Shown here piece by piece: positions 24,522-61,489 of a DNA stretch of 64,000 nt. Source of the DNA: Sanderia malayensis (taxonomy: Eukaryota > Cnidaria > Scyphozoa > Semaeostomeae > Pelagiidae); the NCBI GenBank assembly GCA_013076295.1, contig RQOL01000936.1, forward strand, positions 62,001 to 126,000, read 5' to 3'. How positions within the stretch are numbered: the first letter of the stretch is position 1; every line of letters begins with the position of its first letter. Under the pieces are notes generated by a model that was not told where the DNA came from, made no database searches, and saw only the letters and a list, made by a program, of their open reading frames with translations. The translations under genes were made by a program, and so were the position numbers.

Positions 24522-24522
24522 G
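24521..24522. other. Left junction of host and viral sequence
   Basis: Comparing the left arm with the reverse complement of the right arm, shared sequence begins at GCAATGTGGTAG (24,522), equal to the right arm up to 59,115. To the left the sequences differ completely, and the right arm goes on with viral coding sequence. The left copy is therefore truncated here. Confidence 0.85.
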
Positions 24523-24802
24523 CAATGTGGTAGACGAGTTTGGGATACTTGCTCGACTTCAGTCGTTCGAGGTGTTCGACGAGTTGTTCACGAGCAGCAC
24601 TCGACGAGTGCTGTCTCGGCACGAGAATGTCCAGCACGTAGAATTGTCTGTCGTCGAGTCGATCCAGGTGTTGCTGCAGCAGTCGGTGGCGATCCTGTTC
24701 GGGTATGAAGGCGAGGGAACGCTTCTCCTGCTCGGACAGTCGGTCGTGGTGGTGTTTGAAAAAGTGCTCTTTCAACGACGACGACGACGACGACGAAGAC
24801 AT
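24522..24802 (-). pseudogene. Truncated copy of the unknown viral gene (right copy 58,853-60,231)
   Basis: This holds the first 90 or so codons, from ATG 24,802. It has eight serines after Met where the right copy has two, from TCG repeat slippage. After residue about 93 the viral sequence stops at 24,522 and the frame continues into unrelated flank until 24,356. It is transcribed away from the Cys-rich gene, sharing a short divergent spacer. Confidence 0.8.
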
Positions 24803-24944
24803 GATGGCAATGATGATGTCGATGTTGAGATGAGTTTGTTTGTGTGTGCGCGCGCACGCGTGCGTGTAGAGATTATTTATGCGGAAAGAGGAGGGGAAAA
24901 AGAACGGAACTGATTGGTGTTTTATTTGATTTTTGTTTTTTTAG
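24803..24944. promoter_or_regulatory. Divergent spacer between the unknown gene and the Cys-rich gene, left copy
   Basis: Contains alternating CG/TG sequence (GCGCGCGCACGCGTGCG near 24,847) with Z-DNA-forming potential and, read on the minus strand, an ATAAATAA TATA-like box near 24,870, about 70 bp before the leftward ATG. It ends in a polypyrimidine tract and AG at 24,943-24,944 before the Cys-rich gene. The right copy has the same features at 58,719-58,852. Confidence 0.5.
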
Positions 24945-26019
24945 AAACGAGTCGTCGCTCGTTGTGGAAAGAAAAAAAAGAGCACGAACTGCTGTGGCGG
25001 CAGTTTCTGGACAAGAAGATGACGCCGATGACGAGCTCAGTGGTGCAGATCGACGTACTGTTGCCGAGAACGTGCGCATTCATTTGCTGTTGAAGGCCAA
25101 TCGATCTGCGTACGGCAACCAATTTCTGAGTTTGGTCGGTGAGCGGGTGTGCGTCGCTACGATTTTGTTGTATGCAGTGCGACAGATTGTGACCTTTCTG
25201 GTCAAGCTGGAAGACATTTTCGTCTTGGACGAGCTCGTCAGCTCTCCGGTGAATATGGGCGAACGAGAAAGAAGAACGCACGGTACTGTGGAGTTTCAGA
25301 ACAGATTCGACCGGCTGAAAGACGACTACAAGCAGAGAATGGAGGCAGCTTGTGGCACGCTGTGCAGTGTGTGCAAGGCGAACGTTGCTTTTCGTTGGTG
25401 CGAACATGCTCGGATGCGAGTGATGCCGGCGAAACGAAATCTGTGTTTGGAATGTTGGATAATCCAGGGCATGGAGGCGAATTCGATCAATGTGGTGGAA
25501 AGGCGAGTGACGTGCAGAGCGCCTTGTAACAAGTGCAAAACGCTCAAGTACATGCTTATCCATCTGGCGCTGACGACTACGGCGGGAAGAGTGTTGTTCA
25601 AATGGAGTTTTTTGCAAAGGGTTTTGTGCGAAGTCATGACCTATAATGCGTTTACCATTATGGGTTTTGGAAGTAAAGGAGAAGTGCTGGAGGACGTTAC
25701 GCAGTTGGTGTCTAGAGAGGAATTGATGGCACGCATACCGTACGATTTGGTCAACCACATGATGTCGTGTCGGTCGGCGAACATGGAACGCCTTCGCGTG
25801 CTCTATCTGACCGGGCTGGTGCGAGCCTATCGCTACGTGGAGTTGACGTGGGAAGAGCAGGCGTATTTGAATTTTCACGGAGACAAAAGACGATGTGCCG
25901 TCGTCGATTGGGCTACCGTGTGCGTGCATCGCCTGTTGGAACTTCACAAGAACATCCAACAGACGTCTTGCTCTGTTTGTTTGGGAGCCGTGAGAGATGT
26001 TGGCAACGAAAGAACATAG
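24945..26019 (+). CDS. Viral Cys-rich zinc-binding-like protein, left copy
   Basis: About 358 codons of uninterrupted frame. It is not recognised as a known family. Four CxxC pairs (LCSVC, LCLEC, PCNKC, SCSVC) plus CEH suggest two or more zinc-binding sites: a cluster at about residues 135-200 and a last pair near the C-terminus. The N-terminal 40 residues are basic then acidic, and the middle contains hydrophobic helices. No ATG lies near the start of the conserved reading. A T-rich tract with AG at 24,943-24,944, kept in both copies, suggests a splice acceptor. The right copy lacks about 30 residues near the C-terminus (an internal deletion after LEDVT). Confidence 0.65.
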
Positions 26020-26117
26020 ACTGTTTTTTTTGTTATTGTTGTTGTGTATTTTTTTTTTTTTTTTTTTTTATTATGAATATAGCAAAAAAAAGAATAATGT
26101 AATGGAAAAAAAAAAAG

Positions 26118-27681
26118 TTATTGTTTTTGGCATGGATTTTGCTCTGCGCAATTTTGTGTTTTGGCGACTCGTTGGTCGGCTGTGGTGGTGTTACCATGAG
26201 AGGATCTGCTTGGTGCTGTTGCTGCTGCGGCGGCGGCGGCGATGTGGTGAGTGTAGATATTGCACCAGTGGCACTGTCAGCAGTTGCATCATCATCATCA
26301 TTCTGGTCATCCTGATCATCATCATCATCATCATCAACTGTAAAACGATGACGACGACGACGAGGACGACGAGTAGTAACATTGTCGCCACTGTCGATGG
26401 CATCGTGAAGACGCAGACTGGAGGGGCGTTTGGGTGCTTTTCTTTTTGTTTGTCGGCTTGTTTTGGGAGTTGTGTGTTGCTGCCGTCTTCTTCTTCTTCT
26501 TCTTCTTCTCGGAAGCCGATTTGCTGCGAGTATTGGTTGGACAAAAGGTTTTGTTTTATTGCGTATGTGATGATGTTGTGCGGATTGAGGGCGATATCGT
26601 GTGAGCTGCTGTTGTCGTTGTTGCTGTTGTTGTGTCGTCGTCGTCGTCGTCGTCGTCGTCCAAGTTGAGGTCGATGTGGTATCGTTTCTCATACGAATGC
26701 ATTTGCTTTTTCAAGAGCAGCTTTGTGCTGCGGTTTTCGATTATCCCCGCCAGATTGCTGAAATCGGTAAAGTAACACGAGGTGGGCGTTTTGAGAAGTT
26801 TCATGTAATTTCGTACCTGGAAACCGTCGAGGCACAGGGTGGATTTGTCGCTGACCGGCTCTTTGCTTTTCGCATCTTTGCGACTGAGCACGAAGGCAAC
26901 GTCAAACCAGTCTTGCGGATTCTTTTCGTCACCGAACAAGTGCAGTTCGTTCGGGATGAGAACGAACATGCATTCGTCCATCTGCTCCGGTACCGGGTCA
27001 GGGGGTTTCGAAAACTGCACAATTGTAGACTGTAGATTTGGGTGTTGACAGCGGTGTTTTTCTTTTTGTTTTGGTTGGATTTTGTAAACGCTTGAATGCT
27101 GACTTGTCGTTCGCTGGTCGTGATTGGGATGGAGTGATTTAGTCGGTAGCCTGCCTGATAGCGAGCACGTTTTCGATCGCTTTGAATTTTGCTTCGTTTT
27201 CTGCAACGGGATCGTTGTGTACGAGCGATTTGCTTTGTTTTGAGCTGGGTTTTTGCTGTTGCATGATTTGCAAGGCCGTCTCGATGCTGTTGCATATGTT
27301 TTTGTTGATTTCGTTCAAGGTCTGATTCAGTTTGCTCAAGGTCTTTTCAGTTAATCTACCCTCTTGTGCCATGTGGTAGTTGGCGAGATCGTCGATGTCG
27401 TTGACATTGGCATCGACATTGTTGTTATCATTGTCGCTGTTTAGGGCGATGATTTTGTGTAATTTTTGTAAGCAGGCTGTTTTCTTGCTCTCCTGAATCG
27501 GCTTGTCGGCTTCGATGAAACGTCGTGTTTTGAAAATGAGGACTTCGTGGACCAGCTGTTCGTTGGTGTGACGTTTGGTTTTGCAAATGATTTCTGTAGA
27601 AAGTGTCTTGTATTCACCTTTGCTGTTGTTGTCATTACTGGCGGCGCTGTTGCTGTTGGGATTGATGTTTTTGCTCATCAT
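26118..27681 (-). pseudogene. Viral unknown gene with acidic and Arg-rich tail, left copy (frameshifted)
   Basis: Starts at tandem ATGs (27,681 and 27,678). The N-terminal region is Asn/Ser-rich then helical and stays open to about 27,150, where one base is missing relative to the right copy and the frame stops. The middle (26,700-27,000) encodes a conserved block including CMFVLIPNELHLFGDE and SCYFTDFSNLAGI, probably a folded domain, not recognised. An Asp run and a Lys/Arg-rich region (RQTKRKAPKRP, RRPRRRRHRF) follow, like a nuclear-localisation or DNA-binding tail. A second shift near the end moves the reading past the stop seen in the right copy. It is transcribed divergently from the polymerase gene. 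Confidence 0.7.
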
Positions 27682-27984
27682 CGTGATCGTCGTCGTCGTT
27701 GTCGTTTGCGAATTGCAATTTTCTTCTGCTGTCTCTCCTGTTTTATACACAGCGGACGTAAACGAGAGCAGGTGTGCAAAACAAAGAACCGTGTGCAAAA
27801 ACAAAGGACGTTCGCATTTGCGAACGCAAAAAAATAGAGCAGGTGGACAAACAAAAAGAGAGTTCGCACGGCAGCTGGCGTGTGCGGATGTGCAGTTGGT
27901 ATATAAAAAACCCCAGAATCGTCTAGATAGAGAGGAGAAACGAGCTTATGTGCGCGTGTGTTCGAAGACAGCAGAACGATGTAA
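27682..27984. promoter_or_regulatory. Divergent promoter with TATA boxes and 18-bp palindrome, left copy
   Basis: This 303-bp spacer lies between two genes read outward. A TATAAAA-type box faces the leftward gene (reverse complement of 27,741-27,747) about 60 bp from its ATG. A TATATAAAA box (27,900-27,910) faces the polymerase gene 75 bp before its ATG. Between them, 27,809-27,826 is an inverted repeat with 8-bp arms (CGTTCGCA/TGCGAACG) and a 2-base centre. The right copy holds two such palindromes 56 bp apart. The symmetry and position suggest a binding site for a replication or transcription regulator, or an origin. Confidence 0.65.
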
Positions 27985-30900
27985 ATGACTTTTTACTGTC
28001 GACAATGCGATCTGGATCTGACGCCAGTTTTCGGTGATTCGAATCTATCGGAACACGAACGACAACACGAGCACGAACAGTGCCCCATTGACAATTGTCA
28101 AAGACGAGTGACGACGAATCGACGAATCGAACACGAGGCGAAATTTCATCCAATCAAGTGTGCCGATTGTTCGTCTCATTTTCGCAGCGAAACGAACTTG
28201 AAGCGTCATGTGGCACGCGTGCACCGAGGTTTGGAATGCGTGCTGTGCAGCAATTCAACGAGGACAAGGACGACTGCTGCTTGCTGCTGCTGCTGCTGAT
28301 GGTGGGCGTGGGGATGTGTCTGATTTACGTGATGCCGCCGACGCTGGTGATGCTGCTCGTGGAAGATTTGATTCTGTGGCAGATTTGCGACGGCATAATT
28401 TGGTTGCGCACGACAGAAACGATTTGTGGTTTTGCCAACCCTGTTCGCGCATGTTCACGTCAGAGACAAATCTTAAACGACACAAAGACATGGCCCACCG
28501 CTTTGTCTGTGTTTATTGCGCAAAGCGTTTTGGTAGTGGTAAACAATTGAAATCGCACATTGCCACCGATCACAACGAGCATCCGTGTTATTTTTGCGGA
28601 GGCCAGTTCACGACCGAGAAACAACTGTACGAGCATCAGAAGCAGCACTGTCGCAAGTTCTGTTGCGACTCGTGTGACAAAGAGTTCGAGACGCTCGTGC
28701 ACTACAATGCGCATCGCAGCAAGCATTTTGGCAAGCTCGGCGCCTGTTCGACGTCCACGGAGCCGAGCCTGCGACGGTTTCACACGACCTGGAACGAGCT
28801 GCAGTACGAGCACGAGCCGTGGGAAGCCGATTGTGACGTGTTGCTTCGGGGTTCGGGTCTCGTGCAAAAGAAAGTGCAAAGAAAGCAGATGCTTTACGAC
28901 AACAACGAACTGACAACGACAAACAACGCTTGGTCGATGCGGCGCGCGTCAGCGTGCGCGAAGACTACATCAAGCGATTGCAGCAAGAATACATGGACAA
29001 TCTGAAAGAGCTGGTGAATCACGTGGTCATAGACAAAGAAGACGGTGAGATTCGTCGCATTACGGTGAATCTCGTTCAGAAGGTGCCGTTCGAGGAACAG
29101 CTGGAAAAGGCTCTGCGTGAGATTTTTGCCGCCGTGCGACACCAAACGCCGTACAAGCTCGTGTTGGCGTTCGGTTTTTTGCTCTACAAACGGAAAACGG
29201 ACGAGCTGTGGACGTTCTACGTCAACGAGCACTTGTCGCGCGATCCCGTCGACAGGCGATTCATTCACCAGCTGCCGAACGTTTGGAGCGTGCACGATCG
29301 TCGAGACGAGGAGAAAATCATAGTCGAATTGAAAGAGATGGATTTTTTCAACGCGTTGCAGAACCAACTCGATCAGCACGGCTACGACGTCATGGTCATT
29401 CGAGTTACGAACGTCGTGGCCGAAGTGTTTCCCACGGCTGACGCGGCCGAAAGCTATTCGAACCTGCTCCAGGCTGCCGTGCACGACGGTGACGACGATC
29501 GGACGGCGGTCTTGGAAGGCAGGGGAGGAGACGGAGGAGAAGATGATGACGACGACGACGACGATGTTGTTATGGATGATGTTTTTGATGATGATGATGA
29601 TGATCATCGAGAAGTCGAAGCCGAAGACGACGACGACGACAACAATTACGTATTGAATGCAGATCGACGAAAAACGAGAAGGAAAGAAAAAGACGAGAAC
29701 GGGGAAAGAATCGATGCCTACGTGAAGCGTTGTTCGACGAAACGAAGCACGATACTGTACGGCGGAAGAGTGAAAATATCCGAAGAAACGAAGACGTTCT
29801 ACAAAAACTGTGTTTTTTTATTCAGATGGCGTTTTGGCACTTGCGAGCAGAGAAGAAGAAGAAACCTAACGAACGAAACGGAGCAGAAATCGAACGGCGA
29901 GCACGAGACTACTTTCGACTCTACTGTCGAGAGTTTGGAATCGACAACGACGAAGAGTTTACCGGCGTCAACGTCAAAATCGTCGACAATCTCGAGTATC
30001 TGTTCAAGACGCGTGTGAACGTGTTCGTGTGCACTGCGCTCGAACAGAATGGTGACGACGACGACGACAACGATTGTCGACCGGTGTTGACGTGCGTGCA
30101 CGTGTCGAACATGTCGAACGCGTACGACAACAAGTACGCGACGTTGAACTACTGTTGCACAAAAATCACTACTACACCATACTGGATCGTCAACGTTTTC
30201 TCTATCACAAACTCAAGTGTTACGGTTGCGGAGGGACGTTTTCACGTTTGCCCTCTCTTGCTCGCCACATGAAGGACGTGTGCGGCAGGATAACCTACTG
30301 TTATCCGCGCGGTGCTTTGCAGGCGCACGAGAACGTGTGGCGTAAAGCGAAACGGATGTTTGCCATTCCCGACAGTCTGTTGGACGACGACGACGACGAC
30401 GACGGTCGCTCTACTGGACGCGACGCTACGTCACGTTCGACTTTGAAGCTTTGCTCAAGAACGTGAACCAATCGCAATTGGACGCCTGGGATGCACGCGT
30501 GGGCGACGACGTTGAAGAACGTATCATTGCAGACGACGACGACGACGACGACGACGATGAGGGTGGTGAAGATGTGTTGGTGAACATTCCTTTGTCGTAT
30601 GCTATTGCGACTAATTTCCCCTGCTGCGACGACGACGACGACGACGATGCGACACCAAACGTGTTCGAGAGAGAGTACGATGCCACAACAACAACAACAA
30701 CAACAACAAGAACAGAAAGACGAATCGATGTACTGCGAAAGAAGTGGTGGCGACGGGCAAGTATTTCAGTTTGTTTCGAGTGGCACGCAATCCGCGTCGA
30801 TTGGTGGCCCGCTTCGTCGGCGATCTGATGAAAATGGCCGATTGCAGACGAAAACAAGTTCGAACCGAGTACGCGTCGATTCTTACGCACGTGGAACGGT

Positions 30901-31315
30901 GGTTCGAAGAACGAGGTTTCACGTGTCGTCTGCAAAGCACCACGTGTGACGCGAGCGAATGCGTGACGGTACGCGGCGGTGACGACGACCGCGACAATGC
31001 CGAAGTTCTCATGGAAGTCTACAAGGACGAGATAAGCCTGGTGAGGAAACTGAAACGACGCCTCGACTACCTGCCCGTCATGGGTTTCAATTCGTCCGGC
31101 TACGATTTGCCACTCATCAAAAAGTACTTGTACGACGTTTGTTTGCACGATTTTGACATCAGCAGCGACAACTTCCACTTCATCAAGAAGAATTCCAAGT
31201 ACGTGTCGATGACGATCAGCGACGAACAGCGCAGTGGCGGTTTGTCGTTTCTCGATGTGATGAGTTATTTGGCCGCCGGCGCGTATTCTTTGGACACGTT
31301 CATCAAGGCATTCCT

Positions 31316-31347
<32 letters not shown>

Positions 31348-33954
31348 ACGATGCACGCAAATCCTACTTTCCGTACGAGTACGAGAGGTTGGACGAAACG
31401 TGCATGCCGCCGTACGAGAGTTTTCACTCCACGCTCACGCAGTCGAACCGATTGGAGGACGAGTTGCAGGCGTGGCTGTTGAAAAAACATCGCCGTCTCT
31501 CCGACCACCATACGACGACGACGACGACGACGAACAGCGACCGATGTCGGGACACGAAAAGTACAAACGACTGTGTCGCATGTGGCAGAAGAAGGGATTT
31601 CGAACGCTGGGCGATTTTCTGCGTGACTACAACGTGAAAGACGTGGTGCCGTTTTTGCGCGCCCTGGAAAGCTACGCTTTGCAATTGCGCGAGGCGGGCG
31701 TCGACATGTTCTTCGACGGCATTTCGTTGCCCGGTCTGGCCAAGGCCATTCTCAGTCACAAGATTCCGCCGAACACGTTCTACTATCTGGACAACGCCGA
31801 ACAGTATCGGACTGTGCACAAAAGCGAAGTGGGCGGACAGAGCATCATTTTCAAGCGTTCGAACACGCATCCGTACGTCAGAGGCTACGACGCGAACGCT
31901 CTCTACCTGCACTCCATGTGCGGCGGTCAGTACGTGGGCAAACCGCGCACTACCAACGCTTGGTCGGCGGTGTGATGGTGCGCAGGACGATGCCACCGTC
32001 GTCGATGCGCTTGACAGAGGAACGCAGACGACGCGATGCCGCGCTGGGTAGCATCGGTCCGATCAGAATCAGAGAACGACGCGACAGTCGAGAGGCGCAA
32101 TTGTTTCTTGACTACGTGGAACAGCACGTTCTCACGCCTCGTCGCATCGTGCTGCATCGACAAAAGTACCTGCGACTGTGCCGTTCCGAGATCGATTGGC
32201 TGCAAGGCAAGTACACCGAATTTTTCGGTGGCGGCGAACTGTTGCTGCGAGCGCCGCGATTCTTTACCGTCGACGGTATGTTTACAGATTACGAACAACA
32301 CGGAGGACGAGAACAGCGCTGCATCATCGAGTTCGATGGCTGTTACTGGCACGCGTGTACGCGCGCGGCAAGCAAGTGTCGCGAGAAGTTTGCCGACAAG
32401 ACGTACGCTCGAAATCGACGCAGGATGACGGGCGAGCAGGTGCGAACGCTGGACGAGTTCAGACGAGCGGTGTTGCGACGACGCGGCTATCGCGTGTTCG
32501 TCATGAAAGAATGCACGTGGCGAGAACGGTGTGGACGTCGCGACGGCAGCTCGGTGCACGTGTTCGTCGAAGAACGACGTCGACAACACGAAGACGATCC
32601 CTTGGAACGTAACGACAATTGGGCAGGCTACACCACCCAGGACACTCTAATCGAGGCGCTGTTGCACGGCAAAGTGCACGGAATGGTGACGTGCGACGTG
32701 CACGTGCCGCAGGAGCGACGCGAATACTTCAAGGAGTTCGCACCGATCATCAAGCACGCCTTCGTCGACTATGCCGACGTGGGCGAATTCACGCAAGCCG
32801 TCGCCGACGCGAACGGCATAGCGATCAAGAAACGCAAGTGCGTCATCGACTCGTACGTCGGACACGAGATAACGATCACGGACGAGTACTTCGTGTGGCT
32901 GTTGGAGCACGGTTGCAAGTGCACGAAAATCTACAGTTTTTTGCGTTGGAAAAAGGAGCCGGTGTTTGCCGAGTTCGGTCGAGAGATCACGCGCTTGCGC
33001 GTACAAGGCGACCGGGACAAGTCCAGCGAAATGAAGGCCAACACTGCGAAGCTCATCGGCAACTCGGCGTTCGGCTCGTGCATCACGAACAAAGACAAAC
33101 ACCGTGACGTTCGACTCGTCTCACTGCAGCAGGACGGCGACCGATCGAAAACGCGACGCATGTTGACGAGCGATCAAGTGCTGTCGAACAGACGGGCGAG
33201 ACGTGAGATTGCCTCGATGAACACGTTCGTGCGCTACGAACAGGTCTGTCGACAGGTGCTCGAGGTGGAGACGAAGAAACGACGTGTCGTCTACGATCAG
33301 CCGCGCTACATCGGCAAGACGATCTTCGATCGCGCCAAGCTGTCCGTGCTCACGTTCGTCTACGACTTCTTGAAGAGCGTGCTCAAGCCCGACCACTTCG
33401 AGCTGCTCGAGACGGACACGGACAGCATCTACTTGGCGTTGAAAGAGGACCGTTTCGAAGACAACGTGGCCGAGGAGAAGCGCGACGAGTACGAACGGAA
33501 AAAAGACGTCTACTTCATCACGGATCGGTGCGAGTTCGGCAAACGCCAACCCAATCGCTACAAGCTGGAGTTCTCCGGACATCGCATGGTGTCGCTCTGT
33601 TCCAAGTCCTATTGCGGATTCGACGAGACGTCGCGAGACGTGAAAATCTCCAGCAAGGGCGTGCAGAAGCGCAACTTTGTGCAACACGCTCTGCAACGAC
33701 AACAACAACAACAACAAGACGACAACGACGACGGCAACAAGGACGTTTCTGAAATTATCTACGACATATACAAAGAAGGCTTGAAAACGGATCCGAACGC
33801 AAACTGCAAGACGCACGCGGCGACGAATCGCGGGATAAAGCGAAAACAAAACCTCATGCAAACGTACGCGCAAGAGAAGAACATGCTGAACTCGCTGTAC
33901 TGCAAACGACGCGTTCTAGAAGACGGCATCAGTACCGTGCCATTAAATATTTAG
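27985..33954 (+). pseudogene. polB: Viral zinc-finger/family-B DNA polymerase, left copy (several frameshifts)
   Basis: The product would be close to 1,990 residues if unbroken. N-terminal region: an array of C2H2-like fingers (27,985-28,750), then a helical region and an FGFLLYKRKTDE block (28,930-29,470), acidic runs, and another zinc-finger-like segment before the exonuclease. Exonuclease: FDFEA (30,436-30,450), NSSGYDLPL (near 31,090-31,115), YNVKDVVPF (31,628-31,654). Polymerase: GYDANALYL (31,883 on), a nuclease-like insert with IEFDGCYWHAC (near 32,325-32,358), KLIGNSAFG (33,050-33,075), DTDS (33,415-33,426) and KSYCGF. All catalytic carboxylates seen are intact. The reading changes frame about seven times, mostly in GAC or CAA microsatellites; the polymerase core 31,918-33,954 is one open frame. 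The lineage is that of protein-primed-type polymerases in invertebrate endogenous viruses. It would copy the viral genome. Confidence 0.9.
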
Positions 33955-34057
33955 CAATTAGCAGTTGAACAATTAAAATTCGAACATGTTCCATATATGT
34001 ATGTATTTAATGATTTTGCAAACATTTTTTTTTGTTTGTTTTGTCTCATTCCTCTGC

Positions 34058-34088
<31 letters not shown>

Positions 34089-34100
34089 GCATTAATAAAG

Positions 34101-34125
34101 ATGGCGCCACCACGAACGCTTGAAA
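34101..34125 (+). CDS. Possible first coding exon of a spliced viral gene
   Basis: ATG at 34,101 opens a short reading (MAPPRTLE) that ends at 34,125 directly before a perfect donor GTAAGT. Both ATG and donor are unchanged in the right copy (49,662-49,686). The phase (one base left over) fits the acceptor TTTTTAG at 35,551-35,556, whose exon needs two bases to complete the codon. The intron would contain the 412-codon ORF at 34,236. This is inference from signals only. Confidence 0.45.
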
Positions 34126-34235
34126 GTAAGTGTCATATGATTATTTGATGTTGTTTCTATTATTTTTGCTATTCTTTTGTAAGACAACACAATAGTGATG
34201 ATGATGATGATGATGATGATGATGACGACGATAAC

Positions 34236-35353
34236 ATGTTTACTGCAAATAGAAAAAGTGGACGTAAGTCGTCCTCTTCCTCTGCCAACAGACGAATAGA
34301 TGCTTACGAGCAAGACACGAAATTGTTAAAGTTCATATTTCCGACTGTGTATCAACAGGAAACGTTTTGTTTTCTTTACGATTTTTTCATGCAAATACCT
34401 GTCGATTTGCACGGAGAAAGACAACAGCAGCAAAGCGAAGAAGAGGAAGACATACAAATGAAACTGTTGAATCAGTTTCCATTGTTACGACTTGAACACG
34501 AAAGTATTGCTACGGCTCAATTGATTTTGTCAGAATGCACAATGGACTTGACGACGATTGTGCTGGAAATAAAACTCAGTGTTTTGTTTGAAAAATATTA
34601 CGTGTACTCGTCAGAGGCAACTACTACTGCTGCTGCTATTGCTACTTCTGTTACGGGCGGCATAAAAATGATCATTCCAGACGAGTTTCTACTCTTTAAT
34701 CTATCCAATTTGTGGAAACGATACGTGTTCATACGGAAATTCGAGAAAAATTCTCACGACAATCAGACGACGACAACAACAACAACAATACAAAAAGCAA
34801 AGACCTCCTTGTGTGAAACGGCGTGTCTAGTTGAATTTATTGACAGTAGTTTACGTGAAAAAATAAGCATAGGATTGTTGACGGATTTGCACGCTTTCAA
34901 GATAGAGGAGATATTGAAAGGCACCGGTCTGGGTCGAATGAAAAAACGAATGAAAATGGAAATTGGACACCACGTGGCAAACAATTACGTGTCACCTTTT
35001 AAGAATCTCTACAGTACGTACATCGAAATGCCCCTCGACTATTTGCGACGGAAACGAGAATACGAGTGGGCCAGTGCATCCTTGCAACGACCGGTGCAAA
35101 AATCGAAACGAGGACGAAAAAAGAAAGATGCACAGAAAATCATTCTCGAAAACGAGTCGTTATTTTCGAACAACAACAACAACAACGCTGTAATACCATC
35201 ACCGCCGACAACAACAACAACAACGATAAACAACGACAATGTTGTACACATTGAAAAAGCATTTGAAAATATGGTGGAAAATCTCCTGTCGTCATCGACG
35301 GAAAATTTTACCCCGCTCGTTCTCACAACACCACCACCGCCACCACCGTCACT

Positions 35354-35384
<31 letters not shown>

Positions 35385-35474: not shown

Positions 35475-35556
35475 TAATAAATTCAAATAGTTTATTGTTT
35501 AGTAATATTTAGTTATACTATTTGTACATATATATATATCTGTTTTTACTTTTTAG

Positions 35557-40537: not shown

Positions 40538-40577
<40 letters not shown>

Positions 40578-49686: not shown

Positions 49687-49821
49687 CTTTATTAATGCTG
49701 TTGTTGTTGTTGTTGTTGTTGCAGAGGAATGAGACAAAACAAACAAAAAAATGTTTGCAAAATCATTAAATACATACATATATGGAACATGTTCGAATTT
49801 TAATTGTTCAACTGCTAATTG

Positions 49822-52800
49822 CTAAATATTTAATGGCACGGTACTGATGCCGTCTTCTAGAACGCGTCGTTTGCAGTACAGCGAGTTCAGCATGTTCTTC
49901 TCTTGCGCGTACGTTTGCATGAGGTTTTGTTTTCGCTTTATCCCGCGATTCGTCGCCGCGTGCGTCTTGCAGTTTGCGTTCGGATCCGTTTTCAAGCCTT
50001 CTTTGTATATGTCGTAGATAATTTCAGAAACGTCCTTGTTGCCGTCGTCGTTGTCGTCTTGTTGTTGTTGTTGTTGTCGTTGCAGAGCGTGTTGCACAAA
50101 GTTGCGCTTCTGCACGCCCTTGCTGGAGATTTTCACGTCTCGCGACGTCTCGTCGAATCCGCAATAGGACTTGGAACAGAGCGACACCATGCGATGTCCG
50201 GAGAACTCCAGCTTGTAGCGATTGGGTTGGCGTTTGCCGAACTCGCACCGATCCGTGATGAAGTAGACGTCTTTTTTCCGTTCGTACTCGTCGCGCTTCT
50301 CCTCGGCCACGTTGTCTTCGAAACGGTCCTCTTTCAACGCCAAGTAGATGCTGTCCGTGTCCGTTCGAGCAGCTCGAAGTGGTCGGGCTTGAGCACGCTC
50401 TTCAAAAGTCGTAGACGAACGTGAGCACGGACAGCTTGGCGCGATCGAAGATCGTCTTGCCGATGTGCGCGGCTGATCGTAGACGACACGTCGTTTCTTC
50501 GTCTCCACCTCGAGCACCTGTCGACAGACCTGTTCGTAGCGCACGAACGTGTTCATCGAGGCGATCTCACGTCTCGCCCGTCTGTTCGACAGCACTTGAT
50601 CGCTCGTCAACATGCGTCGCGTTTTCGATCGGTCGCCGTCCTGCTGCAGTGAGACGAGTCGAACGTCACGGTGTTTGTCTTTGTTCGTGATGCACGAGCC
50701 GAACGCCGAGTTGCCGATGAGCTTCGCGGTGTTGGCCTTCATTTCGCTGGACTTGTCCCGGTCGCCTTGTACGCGCAAGCGCGTGATCTCTCGACCGAAC
50801 TCGGCAAACACCGGCTCCTTTTTCCAACGCAAAAAACTGTAGATTTTCGTGCACTTGCAACCGTGCTCCAACAGCCACACGAAGTACTCGTCCGTGATCG
50901 TTATCTCGTGTCCGACGTACGAGTCGATGACGCACTTGCGTTTCTTGATCGCTATGCCGTTCGCGTCGGCGACGGCTTGCGTGAATTCGCCCACGTCGGC
51001 GTAGTCGACGAAGGCGTGCTTGATGATCGGTGCGAACTCCTTGAAGTATTCGCGTCGCTCCTGCGGCACGTGCACGTCGCACGTCACCATTCCGTGCACT
51101 TTGCCGTGCAACAGCGCTTCGATCAGAGTGTCCTGGGTGGTGTAGCCTGCCCAATTGTCGTTACGTTCCAAGGGATCGTCTTCGTGTTGTCGACGTCGTT
51201 CTTCGACGAACGCTTGCACCGAGCTGCCGTCGCGACGTCCACACCGTTCTCGCCACGTGCATTCTTTCATGACGAACACGCGATAGCCGCGTCGTCGCAA
51301 CACCGCTCGTCTGAACTCGTCCAGCGTTCGCACCTGCTCGCCCGTCATCCTGCGTCGATTTCGAGCGTACGTCTTGTCGGCAAACTTCTCGCGACACTTG
51401 CTTGCCGCGCGCGTACACGCGTGCCAGTAACAGCCATCGAACTCGATGATGCAGCGCTGTTCTCGCCCTCCGTGTTGTTCGTAATCTGTAAACATACCGT
51501 CGACGGTAAAGAATCGCGGCGCTCGCAGCAACAGTTCGCCGCCACCGAAAAATTCGGTGTACTTGCCTTGCAGCCAATCGATCTCGGAACGGCACAGTCG
51601 CAGGTACTTTTGTCGATGCAGGACGATGCGACGAGGCGTGAGAAGTGCTGTTCCACGTAGTCAAGAAACAATTGCGCCTCTCGACTGTCGCGTCGTTCTC
51701 TGATTCTGATCGGACCGATGCTACCCAGCGCGGCATCGCGTCGTCTGCGTTCCTCTGTCAAGCGCATCGACGACGGTGGCATCGTCCTGCGCACCATCAC
51801 ACCGCCGACCAAGCGTTGGTAGTGGCGCGGTTTGCCCACGTACTGACCGCCGCACATGGAGTGCAGGTAGAGAGCGTTCGCGTCGTAGCCTCTGACGTAC
51901 GGATGCGTGTTCGAGCGCTTGAAAATGATGCTCTGTCCGCCCACTTCGCTTTTGTGCACAGTCCGATACTGTTCGGCGTTGTCCAGATAGTAGAACGTGT
52001 TCGGCGGAATCTTGTGACTGAGAATGGCCTTGGCCAGACCGGGCAACGAAATGCCGTCGAAGAACATGTCGACGCCCGCCTCGCGCAATTGCAAAGCGTA
52101 GCTTTCCAGGGCGCGCAAAAACGGCACCACGTCTTTCACGTTGTAGTCACGCAGAAAATCGCCCAGCGTTCGAAATCCCTTCTTCTGCCACATGCGACAC
52201 AGTCGTTTGTACTTTTCGTGTCCCGACATCGGTCGCTGTTCGTCGTCGTCCTCGCAAACCGGTTTCGACTGCCTCGGTGACGCGTGCGGAGTGAAAACTC
52301 TCGTACGGCGGCATGCACGTTTCGTCCAACCTCTCGTACCTGTTCACGTACTCGTACGGAAAGTAGGATTTGCGCGCATCGTCGTCGTCGTCGCCGCCGC
52401 CGAGGAATGCCTTGATGAACGTGTCCAAAGAATACGCGCCGGCGGCCAAATAACTCATCACATCGAGAAACGACAAACCGCCACTGCGCTGTTCGTCGCT
52501 GATCGTCATCGACACGTACTTGGAATTCTTCTTGATGAAGTGGAAGTTGTCGTTGCTGATGTCAAAATCGTGCAAACAAACGTCGTACAAGTACTTTTTG
52601 ATGAGTGGCAAATCGTAGCCGGACGAATTGAAACCCATGACGGGCAGGTAGTCGAGGCGTCGTTTCAGTTTCCTCACCAGGCTTATCTCGTCCTTGTAGA
52701 CTTCCATGAGAACTTCGGCATTGTCGCGGTCGTCGTCACCGCTGCCGCGTACCGTCACGCATTCGCTCGCGTCACACGTGGTGCTTTGCAGACGACACGT

Positions 52801-55749
52801 GAAACCTCGTTCTTCGAACCATCGTTCCACGTGCGTAAGAATCGGCGCGTACTCGGTTCGAACTTGTTTTCGTCTGCAATCGGCCATTTTCATCAGATCG
52901 CCGACGAAGCGGGCCACCAATCGACGCGGATTGCGTGCCACTCGAAACAAACTGAAATACTTGCCGCCGTCGCCACCACTTCTTTCGCAGTACATCGATT
53001 CGTCTTTCTGTTCTTGTTGTTGTTGTTGTTGTTGTTGTTGTGCATCGTACTCTCTCTCGAACACGTTTGGTGTCGCATCGTCGTCGTCGTCGTTGTCGCA
53101 GCAGGGGAAATTAGTCGCAATAGCATACGACAAAGGAACGTTCACCAACACATCTTCACCATCCTCATCGTCGTCGTCGTCGTCGTCGTCGTCTGCAATG
53201 ATACGTTCTTCGACGTCGTCGCCCACGCGTGCATCCCAGGCGTCCAATTGCGATTGCTTCACGTTCTTGAGCAAAGCTTCAAAGTCGAACGTGACGTAGC
53301 GTCGCGTCCAGTAGAGCAAACTGTCATCGTCTTTGTCGTCGTCGTCCAACAGACTGTCGGGAATGGCAAACATCCGTTTCGCTTTACGCCACACGTTCTC
53401 GTGCGCCTGCAAAGCACCGCGCGGATAACAGTAGGTTATCCTGCCGCACACGTCCTTCATGTGGCGAGCAAGAGAGGGCAAACGCGAAAACGTCCCTTCG
53501 CAACCGTAACATTTCAGCTTGTGGTAGAGAAAACGTTGACGATCCAGTATGGTGTAGTAGTGATTTTTGTGCAACAGTAGGTTCAACGTCGCGTACTTGT
53601 TGTCGTACGCGTTCGACATGTTCGACACGTGCACGCACGTCAACACCGGTCGACAATCGTTGTCGTCGTCGTCGTCAGCATTCTGTTCGAGCGCAGTGCA
53701 CACGAACACGTTCACACGCGTCTTGAACAGATACTCGAGATTGTCGACGATTTTGACGTTGACGCCGGTAAACTCTTCGTCGTTGTCGATTCCAAACTCT
53801 CGACAGTAGAGTCGAAAGTAGTCTCGTGCTCGCCGTTCGATTTCTGCCCCGTTTCGTTCGTTAGGTTTTTTCTTCTTCTCTGCTCGCAAGTGCCAAAACG
53901 CCATCTGAATAAAAAAACACAGTTTTTGTAGAACGTCTTCGTTTCTTCGGATATTTTTCACTCTTCCGCCGTACAGTATCGTGCTTCGTTTCGTCGAACA
54001 ACGCTTCACGTAGGCATCGATTCTTTCCCCGTTCTCGTCTTTTTCTTTCCTTCTCGTTTTTCGTCGATCTGCATTCAATACGTAATTGTTGTTCTCGTCT
54101 TCTTTGTCGTCTTCGGCTTCGACTTCTCGATCATCATCATCATCATCATCAAAAACATCATCCATAACAACATCGTCGTCGTCGTCGTTGTCTCGTCATC
54201 ATCTTCTCCTCCGTCTCCTCCCCTGCCTTCCAAGACCGCCGTCCGGTCGTTGTTGTCGTCACCGTCGTGCACGGCAGCCTGGAGCAGGTTCGAATAGCTT
54301 TCGGCCGCGTCAGCCGTGGGAAACACTTCGGCCACGACGTTCGTAACTCGAATGACCATGACGTCGTAGCCGTGCTGATCGAGTTGGTTCTGCAACGCGT
54401 TGAAAAAATCCATCTCTTTCAATTCGACTATGATTTTCTCCTCGTCTCGACGATCGTGCACGCTCCAAACGTTCGGCAGCTGGTGAATGAATCGCCTGTC
54501 GACGGGATCGCGCGACAAGTGCTCGTTGACGTAGAACGTCCACAGCTCGTCCGTTTTCCGTTTGTAGAGCAAAAAACCGAACGCCAACACGAGCTTGTAC
54601 GGCGTTTGGTGTCGCACGGCGGCAAAAATCTCACGCAGAGCCTTTTCCAGCTGTTCCTCGAACGGCACCTTCTGAACGAGATTCACCGTAATGCGACGAA
54701 TCTCACCGTCTTCTTTGTCTATGACCACGTGATTCACCAGCTCTTTCAGATTGTCCATGTATTCTTGCTGCAATCGCTTGATGTAGTCTTCGCGTACGCT
54801 GACGCGCGCCGCATCGACCAAGCGTTGTTTGTCGTTGTCGGTTCGTTGTTGTCGTAAAGCATCTGCTTTCTGTTGCACTTTCTTTTGCACGAGACCCGAA
54901 CCCCGAAGCAACACGTCACAATCGGCTTCCCACGGCTCGTGCTCGTACTGCAGCTCGTTCCAGGTCGTGTGAAACCGTCGCAGGCTCGGCTCCGTGGACG
55001 TCGAACAGGCGCCGAGCTTGCCAAAATGCTTGCTGCGATGCGCATTGTAGTGCACGAGCGTCTCGAACTCTTTGTCACACGAGTCGCAACAGAACTTGCG
55101 ACAGTGCTGCTTCTGATGCTCGTACAGTTGTTTCTCGGTCGTGAACTGGCCTCCGCAAAAATAACACGGATGCTCGTTGTGATCGGTGGCAATGTGCGAT
55201 TTCAATTGTTTACCACTACCAAAACGCTTTGCGCAATAAACACAGACAAAGCGGTGGGCCATGTCTTTGTGTCGTTTAAGATTTGTCTCTGACGTGAACA
55301 TGCGCGAACAGGGTTGGCAAAACCACAAATCGTTTCTGTCGTGCGCAACCAAATTATGCCGTCGCAAATCTGCCACAGAATCAAATCTGTCACGAGCAGC
55401 ATCACCAGCGTCGGCGGCATCACGTAAATCAGACACATCCCCACGCCCACCATCAGCAGCAGCAGCAGTCGCCCTTGTCCTCGTTGAATTGCTGCACAGC
55501 ACGCATTCCAAACCTCGGTGCACGCGTGCCACATGACGCTTCAAGTTCGTTTCGCTGCGAAAATGAGACGAACAATCGGCACACTTGATTGGATGAAATT
55601 TCGCCTCGTGTTCGATTCGTCGTCACTCGTCTTTGACAATTGTCAATGGGGCACTGTTCGTGCTCGTGTTGTCGTTCGTGTTCCGATAGATTCGAATCAC
55701 CGAAAACTGGCGTCAGATCCAGATCGCATTGTCGACAGTAAAAAGTCAT
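49822..55749 (-). pseudogene. polB: Viral zinc-finger/family-B DNA polymerase, right copy
   Basis: Same gene as 27,985-33,954, ATG 55,749, stop 49,822. It is less broken than the left copy. Open frames are 55,749-55,453, 55,544-54,075 (zinc fingers and N-terminal domain), 54,165-52,147 (linker, zinc-finger-like segment and exonuclease I-II), 52,229-51,345 (exonuclease III and start of polymerase) and 51,531-49,822 (polymerase palm). A local shift near 50,370-50,490 scrambles the segment just before DTDS, and about 85 bp are missing near 52,260-52,300 relative to the left copy. It shows that the zinc-finger region and N-terminal domain are in one frame. Confidence 0.9.
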
Positions 55750-56134
55750 TTACATCATTCTGCTGTCATATCATCATCTCCTTTCTTCTGTCTTCGATCA
55801 CACACACACACACAAACTCGCTTCTCCTCTCTATCTAGACGATTCTGGGATTTTTTATATACCAACTGCACATCCGCACACGCCAGCTGCCGTGCGAACT
55901 CTCTTTTTGTTTGCCCACCTGCTCTATTTTTTTGCGTTCGCAAATGCGAACGTCCTTTGTTTTGCACACGGTTCTTTGTTTGCCCACCTGCGTTCGCAAA
56001 TGCGAACGTCTTTTGTTTTGCACACGGTTCTTTGTTTGCACACCTGCTCTCGTTTACGTCCGCGTGTGTATAAAACAGGAGAGACAGCAGAAGAAAATTG
56101 CAATTCGCAAACGACAACGACGACGACGATCACG
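55750..56134. promoter_or_regulatory. Divergent promoter with two palindromes, right copy
   Basis: Matches 27,682-27,984 but is longer because a 56-bp unit is duplicated: palindromes CGTTCGCAAATGCGAACG at 55,935-55,952 and 55,991-56,008, each followed by a TTTTGCACACGGTTCTTTG segment. TATAAAA at 56,069-56,075 faces the unknown gene (ATG 56,135), and the TATATAAAA box facing the polymerase gene is kept near 55,855. A CA repeat lies near 55,800-55,812. Confidence 0.65.
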
Positions 56135-57671
56135 ATGATGAGCAAAAACATCAATCCCAACAGCAACAGCGCCGCCAGTAATGACAACAACAGCAAAGGT
56201 GAATACAAGACACTTTCTACAGAAATCATTTGCAAAACCAAACGTCACACCAACGAACAGCTGGTCCACGAAGTCCTCATTTTCAAAACACGACGTTTCA
56301 TCGAAGCCGACAAGCCGATTCAGGAGAGCAAGAAAACAGCCTGCTTACAAAAATTACACAAAATCATCGCCCTAAACAGCGACAATGTCGATGCCAATGT
56401 CAACGACATCGACGATCTTGCCAACTACCACATGGCACAAGAGGGTAGATTAACTGAAAAGACCTTGAGCAAACTGAATCAGACCTGAACGAAATCAACA
56501 AAACATATGCAACAGCATCGAGACGGCCTTGCAAATCATGCAACAGCAAAAACCCAGCTCAAAACAAAGCAAATCGCTCGTACACAACGATCCCGTTGCA
56601 GAAAACGAAGCAAAATTCAAAGCGATCGAAAACGTGCTCGGCTATCAGGCAGGCTACCGACTAAATCACTCCATCCCAATCACGACCAGCGAACGACAAG
56701 CCAGCATTCAAGCGTTTACAAAATCCAACCAAAACAAAAAGAAAAACACCGCTGTCAACACCCAAATCTACAGTCTACAATTGTGCAGTTTTCGAAACCC
56801 CCTGACCGGTACCGAGCAGATGGACGAATGCATGTTCGTTCTCATCCCGAACGAACTGCACTTGTTCGGTGACGAAAAGAATCCGCAAGACTGGTTTGAC
56901 GTTGCCTTCGTGCTCAGTCGCAAAGATGCGAAAAGCAAAGAGCCGGTCAGCGACAAATCCACCCTGTGCCTCGACGGTTTCCAGGTACGAAATTACATGA
57001 AATTTCTCAAGACGCCCACCTCGTGTTACTTTACCGATTTCAGCAATCTGGCGGGGATAATCGAAAACCGCAGCACAAAGCTGCTCTTGAAAAAGCAGAT
57101 GCACTCCTATGAGAAACGATACCACATCGACCTCAACTTAGACGACGACGACGACGACGACGACAACAACAGCAACAACGACAACAGCAGCTCACACGAT
57201 ATCGCCCTCAATCCGCACAACATCATCACATACACAATAAAACAAAACCTTTTGTCCAACCAATACTCGCAGCAAATCGGCTTCCGAGAAGAAGAAGAAG
57301 AAGAAGAAGACGGCAGCAACAACACAACTCCCAAAACAAGCCGACAAACAAAAAGAAAAGCACCCAAACGCCCCTCCAGTCTGCGTCTTCACGATGCCAT
57401 CGACAGTGGCGACAATGTTACTACTCGTCGTCCTCGTCGTCGTCGTCATCGTTTTACAGTTGATGATGATGATGATCAGGATGACCAGAATGATGATGAT
57501 GATGCAACTGCTGACAGTGCCACTGGTGCAATATCTGCACTCACCACATCGCCGCCGCCGCCGCAGCAGCAACAGCACCAAGCAGATCCTCTCATGGTAA
57601 CACCACCACAGCCGACCAACGAGTCGCCAAACACAAAATTGCGCAGAGCAAAATCCATGCAAAAACAATAA
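56135..57671 (+). pseudogene. Viral unknown gene with acidic and Arg-rich tail, right copy
   Basis: Starts at ATG 56,135. The reading stops at 56,486-56,488 because of small deletions relative to the left copy (near 56,487 and 56,505). It resumes in frame 56,529-57,671, which is open through the conserved block, Asp run, Glu run and Arg-rich tail to a TAA at 57,669-57,671. It lacks the frameshift at 27,150 in the left copy, so the two copies are broken at different sites. Confidence 0.72.
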
Positions 57672-57763
57672 CTTTTTTTTTTTCCATTACATTATTCTTT
57701 TTTTTGTTATATTCATAATAAAAAAAAAAAAAAAATACACAACAACAATAACAAAAAAACAGT

Positions 57764-58718
57764 CTATGTTCTTTCGTTGCCAACATCTCTCACGGCTCCC
57801 AAACAAACAGAGCAAGACGTCTGTTGGATGTTCTTGTGAAGTTCCAACAGGCGATGCACGCACACGGTAGCCCAATCGACGACGGCACATCGTCTTTTGT
57901 CTCCGTGAAAATTCAAATACGCCTGCTCTTCCCGCGTCAACTCCACGTAGCGATAGGCTCGCGTAACGTCCTCCAGCACTTCTCCTTTACTTCCAAAACC
58001 CATAATGGTAAACGCATTATAGGTCATGACTTCGCACAAAACCCTTTGCAAAAAACTCCATTTGAACAACACTCTTCCCGCCGTAGTCGTCAGCGCCAGA
58101 TGGATAAGCATGTACTTGAGCGTTTTGCACTTGTTACAAGGCGCTCTGCACGTCACTCGCCTTTCCACCACATTGATCGAATTCGCCTCCATGCCCTGGA
58201 TTATCCAACATTCCAAACACAGATTTCGTTTCGCCGGCATCACTCGCATCCGAGCATGTTCGCACCAACGAAAAGCAACGTTCGCATTGCACACACTGCA
58301 CAGCGTGCCACAAGCTGCCTCCATTCTCTGCTTGTAGTCGTCTTTCAGCCGGTCGAATCTGTTCTGAAACTCCACAGTACCGTGCGTTCTTCTTTCTCGT
58401 TCGCCCATATTCACCGGAGAGCTGACGAGCTCGTCCAAGACGAAATTGTCTTCCAGCTTGACCAGAAAGGTCACAATCTGTCGCACTGCATACAACAAAA
58501 TCGTAGCGACGCACACCCGCTCACCGACCAAACTCAGAAATTGGTTGCCGTACGCAGATCGATTCGCCTTCAACAGCAAATGAATGCGCACGTTCTCGGC
58601 AACAGTACGCCGATCTGCACCACTGAGCTCGTCATCGGTGTCATCTTCTTGTCGAGAAACTGTCGCCACAGCAGTTCGTGCTCTTTTTTTTCTTCCCACA
58701 ACGAGCGACGACTCGTTT
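57764..58718 (-). CDS. Viral Cys-rich zinc-binding-like protein, right copy
   Basis: Uninterrupted frame matching 24,945-26,019, with the same CxxC pairs. An in-frame deletion of about 40 residues removes the segment between LEDVT and RAYRYVEL. The start is again without ATG, directly after a T-rich tract and AG (58,719-58,720, reversed). Confidence 0.65.
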
Positions 58719-58852
58719 CTAAAAAAACAAAAAATCAAATAAAACACCAATCAGTTCCGTTCTTTTTCCCCTCCTCTTTCCGCATAAATAATCTCTACAC
58801 GCACGCGCGCGCGCACACACACAAACAAACTCATCTCAACATCGACATCATC

Positions 58853-60231
58853 ATGTCGTCGTTGAAAGAGCACTTTTTCAAACACCACCACGACCGACTG
58901 TCCGAGCAGGAGAAGCGTTCCCTCGCCTTCATACCCGAACAGGATCGACACCGACTGCTGCAACAACACCTGGATCGACTCGACGACAGACAATTCTACG
59001 TGCTGGACATTCTCGTGCCGAGACAGCACTCGTCGAGTGCTGCTCGCGAACAACTCGTCGAACACCTCGAACGACTGAAGTCGAGCAAGTATCCCAAACT
59101 CGTCTACCACATTGCCGTGCAAAACACGTGTCGTCAAAACGATCTGTTCAACCTGCTCACCGTCGTCCAGTTCAAGCCGAAACAGAAGGCCGACACGAAT
59201 TGTCACACCTGGCTGCACAACAACGGCTTTCAAGAGCTGTTCAAGCGCATTCACGCCGTCGCCGCGAAACCGTTCGCCTACCTGTGTCTGTCGGAAAGCC
59301 TGAAACTGTTCAACGCGCACTGCAATCGCACCGGCTGCGTCCTCGACACTTACCCGATCGACGAACTGTTCGCCGCCACCGCCGCCACTCTGTCCAACAC
59401 GACTTCGGCACCGACTACTGCTGCCGTTAGTCCTCCCGTCCCTCTCTCCACAACAGCAGCAGCAGCAGCAACAGCATCAAGACCATTTGCCGCTCCTGGC
59501 AGCAGCGGCGGCGGCGGTGGTGGCAAAACTAACGGAGGCGGTACCGTTGCCGGCATCGGCATGCCAACCGAACGCCAAAAAGACGCCACTTCCTCTGACA
59601 TTGCCGGCGGTGCTGCCATACTGTCGCCGTCGTCTACAAAAGATCAGGAAAAAAAAAACACCACGATTATCTGCTGTTCACGTCGTTCATGCACTACGGT
59701 CAGTGTCAAAAACCCTTCATCGACATCTACTGTCACGAAACGCACCAACCTGCCGGCGCCGATCTCGTACACCACATCGTACTCGACGAACACACTAACA
59801 AACACAAAGACATTCACTTTGTCGTCTCCCACCGCAACAGCCACCATCAATCGTCACAACAACAACAAAATAACACAATAAAAACAAAAAAAAAGAAATC
59901 GCCTGTTAAAAAACGCAAACGTACCTCTTTGTCGTCGTCGTCGTTAACAGCAAAAACGAAACGAAAAAAACCACCGACAACAACAGTCAATGATGATGAT
60001 GATGACAACAATACAAAGAATGCCGAATACTTTTCGTGCGATTCCTGCTCCTCGTCGTCGTCGTCAGTGTCGGTGTCGGTGTCGTCGGCGTCGGTCTCTT
60101 CAGACGAAGAACCAGAAAAAAAAGAACAAAACAAAAAACACAAAAGAACAAAGAAAATACCTTCACGTACTAAAAACACTACTAGCAGTATCATTAATAA
60201 CAACAGCAGCGGTGACACTAGTGTCGTTTAA
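58853..60231 (+). pseudogene. Complete unknown viral gene (truncated in left copy), one frameshift
   Basis: ATG 58,853, TATA-like ATAAATAA about 70 bp upstream. Residues 1-185 look folded and helical, with several conserved-looking Cys/His residues (NTCRQNDLFN, TNCHTWLHNNGF, NAHCNRTGC). A Thr/Ala/Gly-rich linker follows. At the A-run 59,650-59,659 the reading shifts to frame 59,689-60,231 (HYGQCQKPFIDIYCHETHQ, then Lys-rich and Ser/Asp-rich disordered parts). About 460 residues overall. Not recognised. The poly-A position suggests slippage or a sequencing error. Confidence 0.65.
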
Positions 60232-60344
60232 CAAAAACCAACTCGTATTTATATATCATTTTCATGCATTGTTCTATAAATGTATAAGCACATTATCATC
60301 TTTTCTTTCCACACCTGCCTCACACACACACACGCGCGCAAACA

Positions 60345-60471
60345 ATGATACAACAAAAAATTCAATGATACAACAAAAAATTCAATGATACAACAAAAAA
60401 TTCAATGATACAACAAAAAATTCAATGATACAACAAAAAATTCAATGATACAACAAAAAATTCAATGATAC

Positions 60472-60502
<31 letters not shown>

Positions 60503-60590
60503 CAATGATACAACAAAAAATTCAATGATACAACAAAAAAATTCAATGATACAACAAAAAATTCAATGATACAACAAAAAATTCAATGGA
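60345..60590. repeat. 20-bp tandem array, right copy, outer end
   Basis: About twelve units of TTCAATGATACAACAAAAAA, interrupted by a poly-A tract at about 60,471-60,500. Same unit as at 39,061 and 44,357. In viral orientation the two arrays are direct repeats flanking about 16 kb. Confidence 0.95.
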
Positions 60591-60742
60591 GTAAAATAGC
60601 ATCTATTGAATACGCCCACTTCTTTTGTTCGTCTCGCGTAGATAAAAAGAGCGCAACAGAAGACGAAAATCAGTCAGTCCTCACTCACTCACTCACTCAC
60701 AAGTCACAAGAAGTCAAGAAGACAAGAAGACAAGAAGACAAG

Positions 60743-61489
60743 ATGATCTGCAATGATAATGATGAAGACACTGCGACCACTGTTGCTAATAGTACTAACC
60801 GTACTACTGCTACTGTCACCAAGAGCAGTTCTAAATCCAATACTATGGCTACTGTGGCTACTGCTACTGCTACTCGTTCGGTTTACAAGATAAAAAGACT
60901 CAACAAACAGCTCCAAGCAGCAACCGCCAACACTCGTCGTGTGAAACAAACTCTACGACAAATGCTACAACTTTTCATTCGCCACAGCAACCAGAGTGCC
61001 GAACTTCTCAAACGAGCAGAAGACAAAAACAAAATTCTCTACTCAACGGTAGCAACACAGATAGAGGTCAACGCAAGACTCAGAGAACAGCTCGAACAGC
61101 AACCATCACCACCACCACCAACAACAGCCACCGACCTCTCACAGAAGTGCTGCTGTTGCTGTCGTCTTCATTCTCACAACAACACCACTGCTGATCGTCG
61201 TCATCATGTTAGCGGCGGTGGCGGCGGCGACGACAAAGACGAAGCAATCAGCATCACATCGTCCGTCGACGATTTCCTCGAAAGCAACAACAGCAGCAAC
61301 AGTGACGACGACGACAACATCGAAACATACAATCCTCCCAGCGACGGCTTCTCTCAGAAAATCATGTTCAACATCCCCGCCCGCCACGACGACGACGACG
61401 ACGACGACAGCCTGATGAAGGAAAGAAAATCTGACAACGATGATTCAATCACTGAAGCACTTCACCAACTTACAGAGAACAACAAGTAA
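60743..61489 (+). CDS. Viral coiled-coil protein, right copy only
   Basis: ATG 60,743, 248 residues, intact. After a Thr/Ala-rich start, residues about 50-120 form a likely coiled coil rich in Leu/Gln/Arg (IKRLNKQLQAATANTRRVKQ). A C5 cluster, Gly run, acidic Ser/Asp region and Asp run follow. A GATAAAAAG box lies about 100 bp upstream, and the 20-bp array lies upstream of that. Could be a bZIP-like regulator or a scaffold; there is no evidence to decide. Confidence 0.6.
   Translation: MICNDNDEDTATTVANSTNRTTATVTKSSSKSNTMATVATATATRSVYKIKRLNKQLQAATANTRRVKQTLRQMLQLFIRHSNQSAELLKRAEDKNKILYSTVATQIEVNARLREQLEQQPSPPPPTTATDLSQKCCCCCRLHSHNNTTADRRHHVSGGGGGDDKDEAISITSSVDDFLESNNSSNSDDDDNIETYNPPSDGFSQKIMFNIPARHDDDDDDDSLMKERKSDNDDSITEALHQLTENNK

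Follow-up and report, generated by a model that had tools for sequence, protein, structure and literature searches.

The window analysed here is a stretch of 64,000 nucleotides from Sanderia malayensis, bases 62001-126000 of scaffold C886 in a genome of 184 Mb and 918 contigs. Wnt genes, a mark of animals, gave 45 match rows in this genome (best E 1.4e-52) and were matched in 0 of 14 control genomes, which agrees with an animal host. From position 24522 to its right edge the window holds one endogenous virus-like element, with genes for a family-B DNA polymerase (polB) and a putative A32-like packaging ATPase, in two inverted copies: copy B (24522..44256, + strand) followed by copy C (44357..64000, - strand, for the part in the window). 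Copies A, B, C and D all lie on C886; copies on other contigs of the same genome are called sister copies. By blastn self-comparison, 24522-38932 (+) aligned with 59115-44748 inverted in four main alignments of 95.9-97.4% identity, and additional short matches led into a 20-bp array common to both. The two inverted copies described in an earlier note on this DNA were thus borne out; the limits given there for the element, 24522 and 61489, were not. Copy B is truncated at 24522, where a gene is cut that carries on in copy C. DNA as far as 64000 is common to copy C and the copies on C289, and copy C continues beyond the window to its own terminal inverted repeat (TIR; C886:130485-130699). The right end of copy B and the beginning of copy C both lie at a run of exactly 100 N (44257..44356). 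Such a run is the conventional mark of a scaffold gap of unknown length, and the inverted B/C junction is therefore a scaffolding statement.

Pfam was used to scan 31 open reading frame (ORF) pieces of the stretch, some short ORFs being left out. Only zinc-finger families passed above cut-off, and no integrase, protease or capsid family was found in these 31 pieces. The C2H2 zinc-finger ORF (28202..29005, +; zf-C2H2_4, 4.3e-13) lies at the N-terminal side of polB. The polB N-terminal region is represented by a piece from the ORF list (28837..30018, +) that is matched in sister copies and has its frame broken downstream, and the palm region by a piece (31918..33954, +) with KLIGNSAFG and DTDS motifs; the palm piece of copy C, placed from the ORF list and the inverted repeat, is at 49822..51531 (-). 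Downstream are the conserved ORF f (34236..35474, +; 412 aa; no Pfam match above cut-off), the ATPase (36390..37178, +), whose frame is interrupted in copy B, and a small hydrophobic/basic ORF (37435..37734, +; no Pfam match), which may resemble adenovirus pVI. The gene list of the earlier note stood with some qualification, in that the fingers and a Pox_A32-like match, the latter below the Pfam cut-off, came from searches, and the polB motifs and the hydrophobic Ala/Gly-rich ORF were seen by eye in translations. Copy B ends at the gap with ORF q (43663..44256, +), which is matched in sister copies.

The genes beyond the gap were found in the sister copies. Pieces from C686 (two copies), C608, C806, C815, C607, C711 and C913 largely keep the gene order of the window, and sister copies continue beyond the point equivalent to window 44256, where they carry an integrase. 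The integrase ORF of C608 reaches its first ATG 70 nt past that point. This ORF matched the Pfam family rve (PF00665) at E 5.9e-13 and the integrase piece of C686 did so at E 5.9e-14, both above cut-off, and integrase matches adjoin q in C608, C686 and C806. After the integrase come a 560-aa-class ORF, with open frames of 558 (C451) and 567 codons (C806), a short ORF (L020:203-907) with a sub-threshold Med26_C match in Pfam, and a 535-aa-class ORF. Copy A, which seems to have lost the sequence separating l from the short ORF, has in series a basic ORF, a 488-codon ORF (413 codons if counted from the first ATG) and a protease. The protease of copy A matched Peptidase_C5 (PF00770) at E 1.2e-5, with 25.5 bits against a cut-off of 21.3, and its best matches among PDB sequences were sentrin-specific protease 8 (0.0043) and adenains (0.025-0.067). 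It is present in copy A and in sister copies, outside the window. Reading from the protease, the 535-aa class, the 560-aa class and the integrase follow in this order in C806, C686, C711, C451 and C420. Because this order is the same at five contigs, it is unlikely that the integrase and protease belong to another element inserted beside q.

A 215-bp TIR, 98.1% identical between its two occurrences, ends copy C (C886:130699) and copy A (C886:23135). Its outer bases are AGTAGT; Maverick TIRs end AG...CT. When the genome was searched with the TIR, full or partial matches were found at 39 places. Pairs bracket C686:5019830-5059773 (39.9 kb), C806:684-41521 (40.8 kb) and C815:5686459-5728603 (42.1 kb), measured between outermost matched bases; these stretches may have gaps inside. 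A shorter pair on C451 spans 32.5 kb, and on C711 a pair surrounds two mirror copies. The element is present in the genome in many copies. Separately, there are many more ATPase, integrase and protease matches, mostly of 25-40% identity, which suggest that the genome also houses at least one other Maverick family. A family of 40-42 kb is at the upper end of reported Maverick size and larger than typical Mavericks, for which passages of PMC6431247 give 15-25 kb, with up to 40 kb reported. The approximately 22 kb of gene content described in the earlier note is roughly half of the element, not all of it.

From the observed gene content and order, the TIRs at the ends, the integrase and protease families and the mostly low ratios of nonsynonymous to synonymous substitution (dN/dS), we conclude with high confidence that copies B and C are partial, partly decayed copies of an endogenous double-stranded DNA virus family of Maverick/Polinton type, probably adintovirus-like, with a size of about 40-42 kb and many copies, and that the integrase and protease are missing from the window because of the 100-N gap and truncation. 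The earlier note had reported an element with no recognisable integrase or capsid protein. This is so for the scanned window ORFs, but an integrase and a protease of the family are present in sister copies, beyond the window. The explanations then offered, divergence or a separate lineage, fail for these two genes, both of which pass Pfam cut-offs in the sisters. For the integrase, the correspondence to known Maverick or adintovirus genes is at the level of the rve family rather than by direct comparison with reference sequences. In the own-genome search C886 had no integrase or 560-aa-class match row, and we therefore infer these genes of copies B and C from the sisters. That scaffold, together with the window ORFs, which by themselves show neither gene set, might suggest a separate virus lineage truly without an integrase and a standard virion module; such a lineage is extremely improbable, given that sister loci have the integrase and protease in a constant order within units bracketed by TIRs and that B and C both end at an assembly gap.

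The polymerase and ATPase assignments were examined by several searches. The palm piece 31918-33954 found 25 homologous proteins; by name and identity, 8 appear to be same-species gene models and the other 17, with 36-51% identity, to come from other records. Two of eight proteins scanned, P0018 (28.5 bits) and P0025 (30.3), both among the 17, passed the DNA_pol_B_2 (PF03175) cut-off of 25.8, and 4 of the 18 members of the polB alignment matched this family at E 0.01 or better. Against PDB sequences the polB piece gave 0 matches at E 1 and the polB profile A2 gave three, at E 0.23-0.36; in PHROGs the piece had an endonuclease match (5.2e-4). Pfam found no OTU domain in the polB N-terminal pieces or in P0005 and P0006, two gene models whose N-terminus may be missing. 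The ATPase has a Walker-A-like stretch, seen by eye, and a weak terminase match in PHROGs (0.0076). Its own-genome search returned 148 match rows, with identity of 60% or more in 21; some rows cover parts of one and the same gene. IMG/VR scans with the ATPase, the polB piece, A2, A1 (four EukProt models of the 560-aa class) and the 488-codon ORF returned 0 loci.

To assess selection, copy B was compared codon by codon with up to eight sister copies, giving 106 gene-by-copy rows, each 40 codons or longer; the proportion-based ratio pN/pS was used in the 10 rows with saturated synonymous divergence. The ratio was at most 0.5 in 84 of the 106 rows. Values were 0.13-0.32 for the polB palm piece (6/6 copies), 0.13-0.29 for the ATPase (8/8), 0.17-0.31 for ORF f (7/7), 0.06-0.15 for ORF m2 (8/8), 0.23-0.42 for ORF p (7/7), 0.16-0.39 for ORF q (7/7) and 0.30-0.64 for ORF n (7/7). 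There is no row for ORF a because the fetched sister pieces stop near it. Frame changes break several window genes, including polB in both copies and the ATPase in copy B, and the own-genome ATPase search found longer open frames at sister loci. Because each pair among copies A-D differs by 73-117 gap openings versus 56-105 substitutions, part of this breakage could reflect sequencing error or changes in microsatellites.

Three ORFs are capsid candidates by size and place: L011:8040-9503 (the 488-codon ORF), L012:235-1950 and L037:240-1796. The 560-aa-class and 535-aa-class ORFs gave nothing convincing in Pfam, PHROGs or PDB sequences, and the 488-codon ORF no convincing match in Pfam, PDB sequences or IMG/VR; the PHROGs search covered nine proteins, the 488-codon ORF not among them, and returned transposase-type matches for the integrase part of P0001. 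A protein search with the 560-aa-class ORF found just four EukProt gene models, apparently from the same species. The 560-aa-class ORF (L037, P0001) was considered as the major capsid protein and dropped, as size and position beside the protease favour the 488-codon ORF. The latter is the preferred capsid candidate, on its size and its place by the protease, a place known from copy A alone.

Such virion candidates without convincing sequence matches (the 560-aa, 535-aa and 488-codon ORFs) would also be expected of a chimera joining Maverick-type replication and integration genes to a capsid module unrelated to the adenovirus/Polinton double jelly roll. Diverged capsids, however, usually lack sequence matches, and the adenain-like protease beside the 488-codon ORF is in keeping with a virion module like that of adenoviruses. 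Chimeras of this type are described in PMC11071296; for the present element we regard one as distinctly unlikely. We would give an equally small chance to a 40-42 kb animal lineage with a standard integrase/polB/protease core, a non-double-jelly-roll capsid module (the 560-, 535- and 488-codon ORFs) and about ten further genes without assigned function, mostly under purifying selection.

A number of observations count against assigning the copies to a Maverick/Polinton-type family, besides the empty integrase record of C886. The bracketing TIR matches are diverged and mostly partial: both ends on C806 cover bases 62-136 of 215, and the C815 matches and the left-end match of C686 are also partial. 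Gene order is broken in C608, where an l piece lies inverted, in C607, which has a polB piece twice, and in C815, where the integrase/560-aa segment is inverted. Pfam gave no polymerase match for the window polB piece or for five sister polB pieces. The Pox_A32 match of the ATPase (E 4.9e-4, 20.1 bits) is below the Pfam cut-off of 22.8, and the ATPase had no match at E 1 among PDB sequences. Sequence searches recognised no capsid family among the candidate ORFs, and AlphaFold on the 560-aa class (P0001; A1) gave a mean predicted local distance difference test score (pLDDT) of 29.9, which is unusable. Finally, 22 of the 106 selection rows exceed 0.5, in genes c, d, g, j, l, m1, n and o, one of them (g against C686) at 1.15.

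The adintovirus/Maverick-like placement proposed in the earlier note is nonetheless supported by the rve integrase, polB, adenain-like protease and TIRs of the sister and scaffold copies. The adenovirus polB is of the protein-primed type, and by motif the element shares this polymerase type, as well as an adenain-type protease, with adenoviruses; unlike them it has an integrase, is endogenous and multi-copy, and shows no recognisable hexon. We rejected membership in the bidnaviruses or adenoviruses themselves, as neither family definition accommodates an integrated unit bracketed by TIRs that carries both an integrase and an adenain-like protease. For Mavericks/Polintons (class Polintoviricetes), PMC11071308 and PMC6431247 list polB, an rve integrase, an adenovirus-like cysteine protease, a packaging ATPase and TIRs; all but the ATPase are found here above cut-off or at the ends of copies, and the ATPase is a putative one. 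The family departs from Mavericks in capsid genes that are not recognisable by sequence, in C2H2 fingers at the N-terminal side of polB, in many ORFs without an assigned role and in internal 20-bp arrays. Adintoviruses are defined, in PMC11071296, by an OTU-like N-terminal domain of polB, an integrase with a C-terminal chromodomain and a hexon reciprocally recognisable by BLASTp; zinc-finger ORFs are noted there in some of them. The family is like adintoviruses in its animal host, polB, rve integrase, adenain-like protease and putative packaging ATPase, and zinc-finger ORFs are common to it and some adintoviruses. In contrast, no hexon was recognisable by the searches done. In the integrase P0003 Pfam detected just the rve core and no chromodomain. 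Adintovirus membership is likely. On sequence evidence, the family appears to be a further Maverick/Polinton-type member whose virion genes escape sequence recognition.

The inverted arrangement of B and C is most simply read as near-identical copies or alleles joined by scaffolding. Copy D (C886:136829 on) repeats, at 96-99% identity, copy C with its TIR and about 6 kb of the sequence flanking the TIR, and C and D each begin at an N gap. Over 10.8-14.1 kb aligned, substitutions amount to 0.50% between A and B, 0.52% between C and D and 0.81-0.96% for comparisons across the two pairs. A true head-to-head inverted dimer, formed by replication or recombination with no scaffolding join, would be in line with a second mirror pair around a gap on C711, which has two ATPase matches of equal scores on opposite strands and an N gap in L026. 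But both junctions are inside N gaps, and C and D are near-duplicates with a common flank outside the TIR. The lowest divergences are those of A-B and C-D, a pattern that alleles or recent duplicates placed in one scaffold would give; we consider a dimer unlikely. Under the scaffolding reading, contig breaks inside the 20-bp arrays are likely for copy C. Since the four C886 copies differ by less than 1% in substitutions, some copies are young or recently duplicated. The two mirror copies on C711 (C711:57223-107142) lie around an N gap and could be either an inverted dimer or an assembly fold-back.

The remaining features of the element are as follows. The Cys-rich ORF a (24844..26019, +; 391 aa) had 48 match rows in the own genome and no Pfam match; in copy C it is at 57764..58750 (-; 328 aa), again with own-genome matches and no Pfam match. 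Repeat finding placed a 20-bp tandem array of 7.8 units between k and l (39051..39208, +). Together with self-comparison, it located the same array where copy C meets the gap (44357..44421, -) and the element's second 20-bp array of 12.2 units (60343..60588, -). ORF l (39472..40275, +, part) is fast-evolving and matched in sister copies, and by eye there is an apparent short GT...AG intron at 39380-39471. Next come the small, strongly conserved ORF m2 (41104..41463, +), the small, basic ORF n (41540..41797, +) and ORF p (42106..43338, +; 410 aa). The protein search with ORF p gave 0 homologues among 8000 scored candidates, which says little because own-species copies were also not returned. 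ORF r, the gene cut at 24522 in copy B, was located in copy C by self-comparison (58853..59881, +). ORF t of copy C (60566..61489, +), from the ORF list, lies in DNA common to the C289 and C686 copies.

Window positions 1-24400 are a host stretch rich in other mobile elements. It contains an RVT_1 ORF (2041-4131) with a PHD-finger ORF nearby, OTU and Helitron-like N-terminal ORFs (6426-10428), a second RVT_1 ORF adjoining an ORF that matches phage-integrase SAM below threshold (12240-14382), a PIF1-like ORF (16891-17505), a tandem array with 6.7 copies of a 114-bp unit and, after it, an array of an 87-bp variant (20312-21256), and a THAP ORF (23818-24129). On the other side, at the TIR of copy C, L016:4644-9451 (C886:130644-135451) holds an ORF that by eye resembles the polB of another Maverick family and for which Pfam gave just weak zinc-finger matches; retrotransposon-like ORFs, also recognised by eye, lie beyond it.

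From functions known for such gene sets we infer the life cycle in outline: a linear genome with TIRs would be copied by polB via protein priming, inserted by the retroviral-type integrase and packaged by the A32-like ATPase, and the particles would mature through the adenain-like protease. In sum, this locus is a case in which a scaffold gap can make an endogenous virus seem a new kind. The family itself, large and multi-copy, with conserved genes of unassigned function and virion genes not recognised by sequence, is useful for structure-based work on animal Mavericks and adintoviruses.

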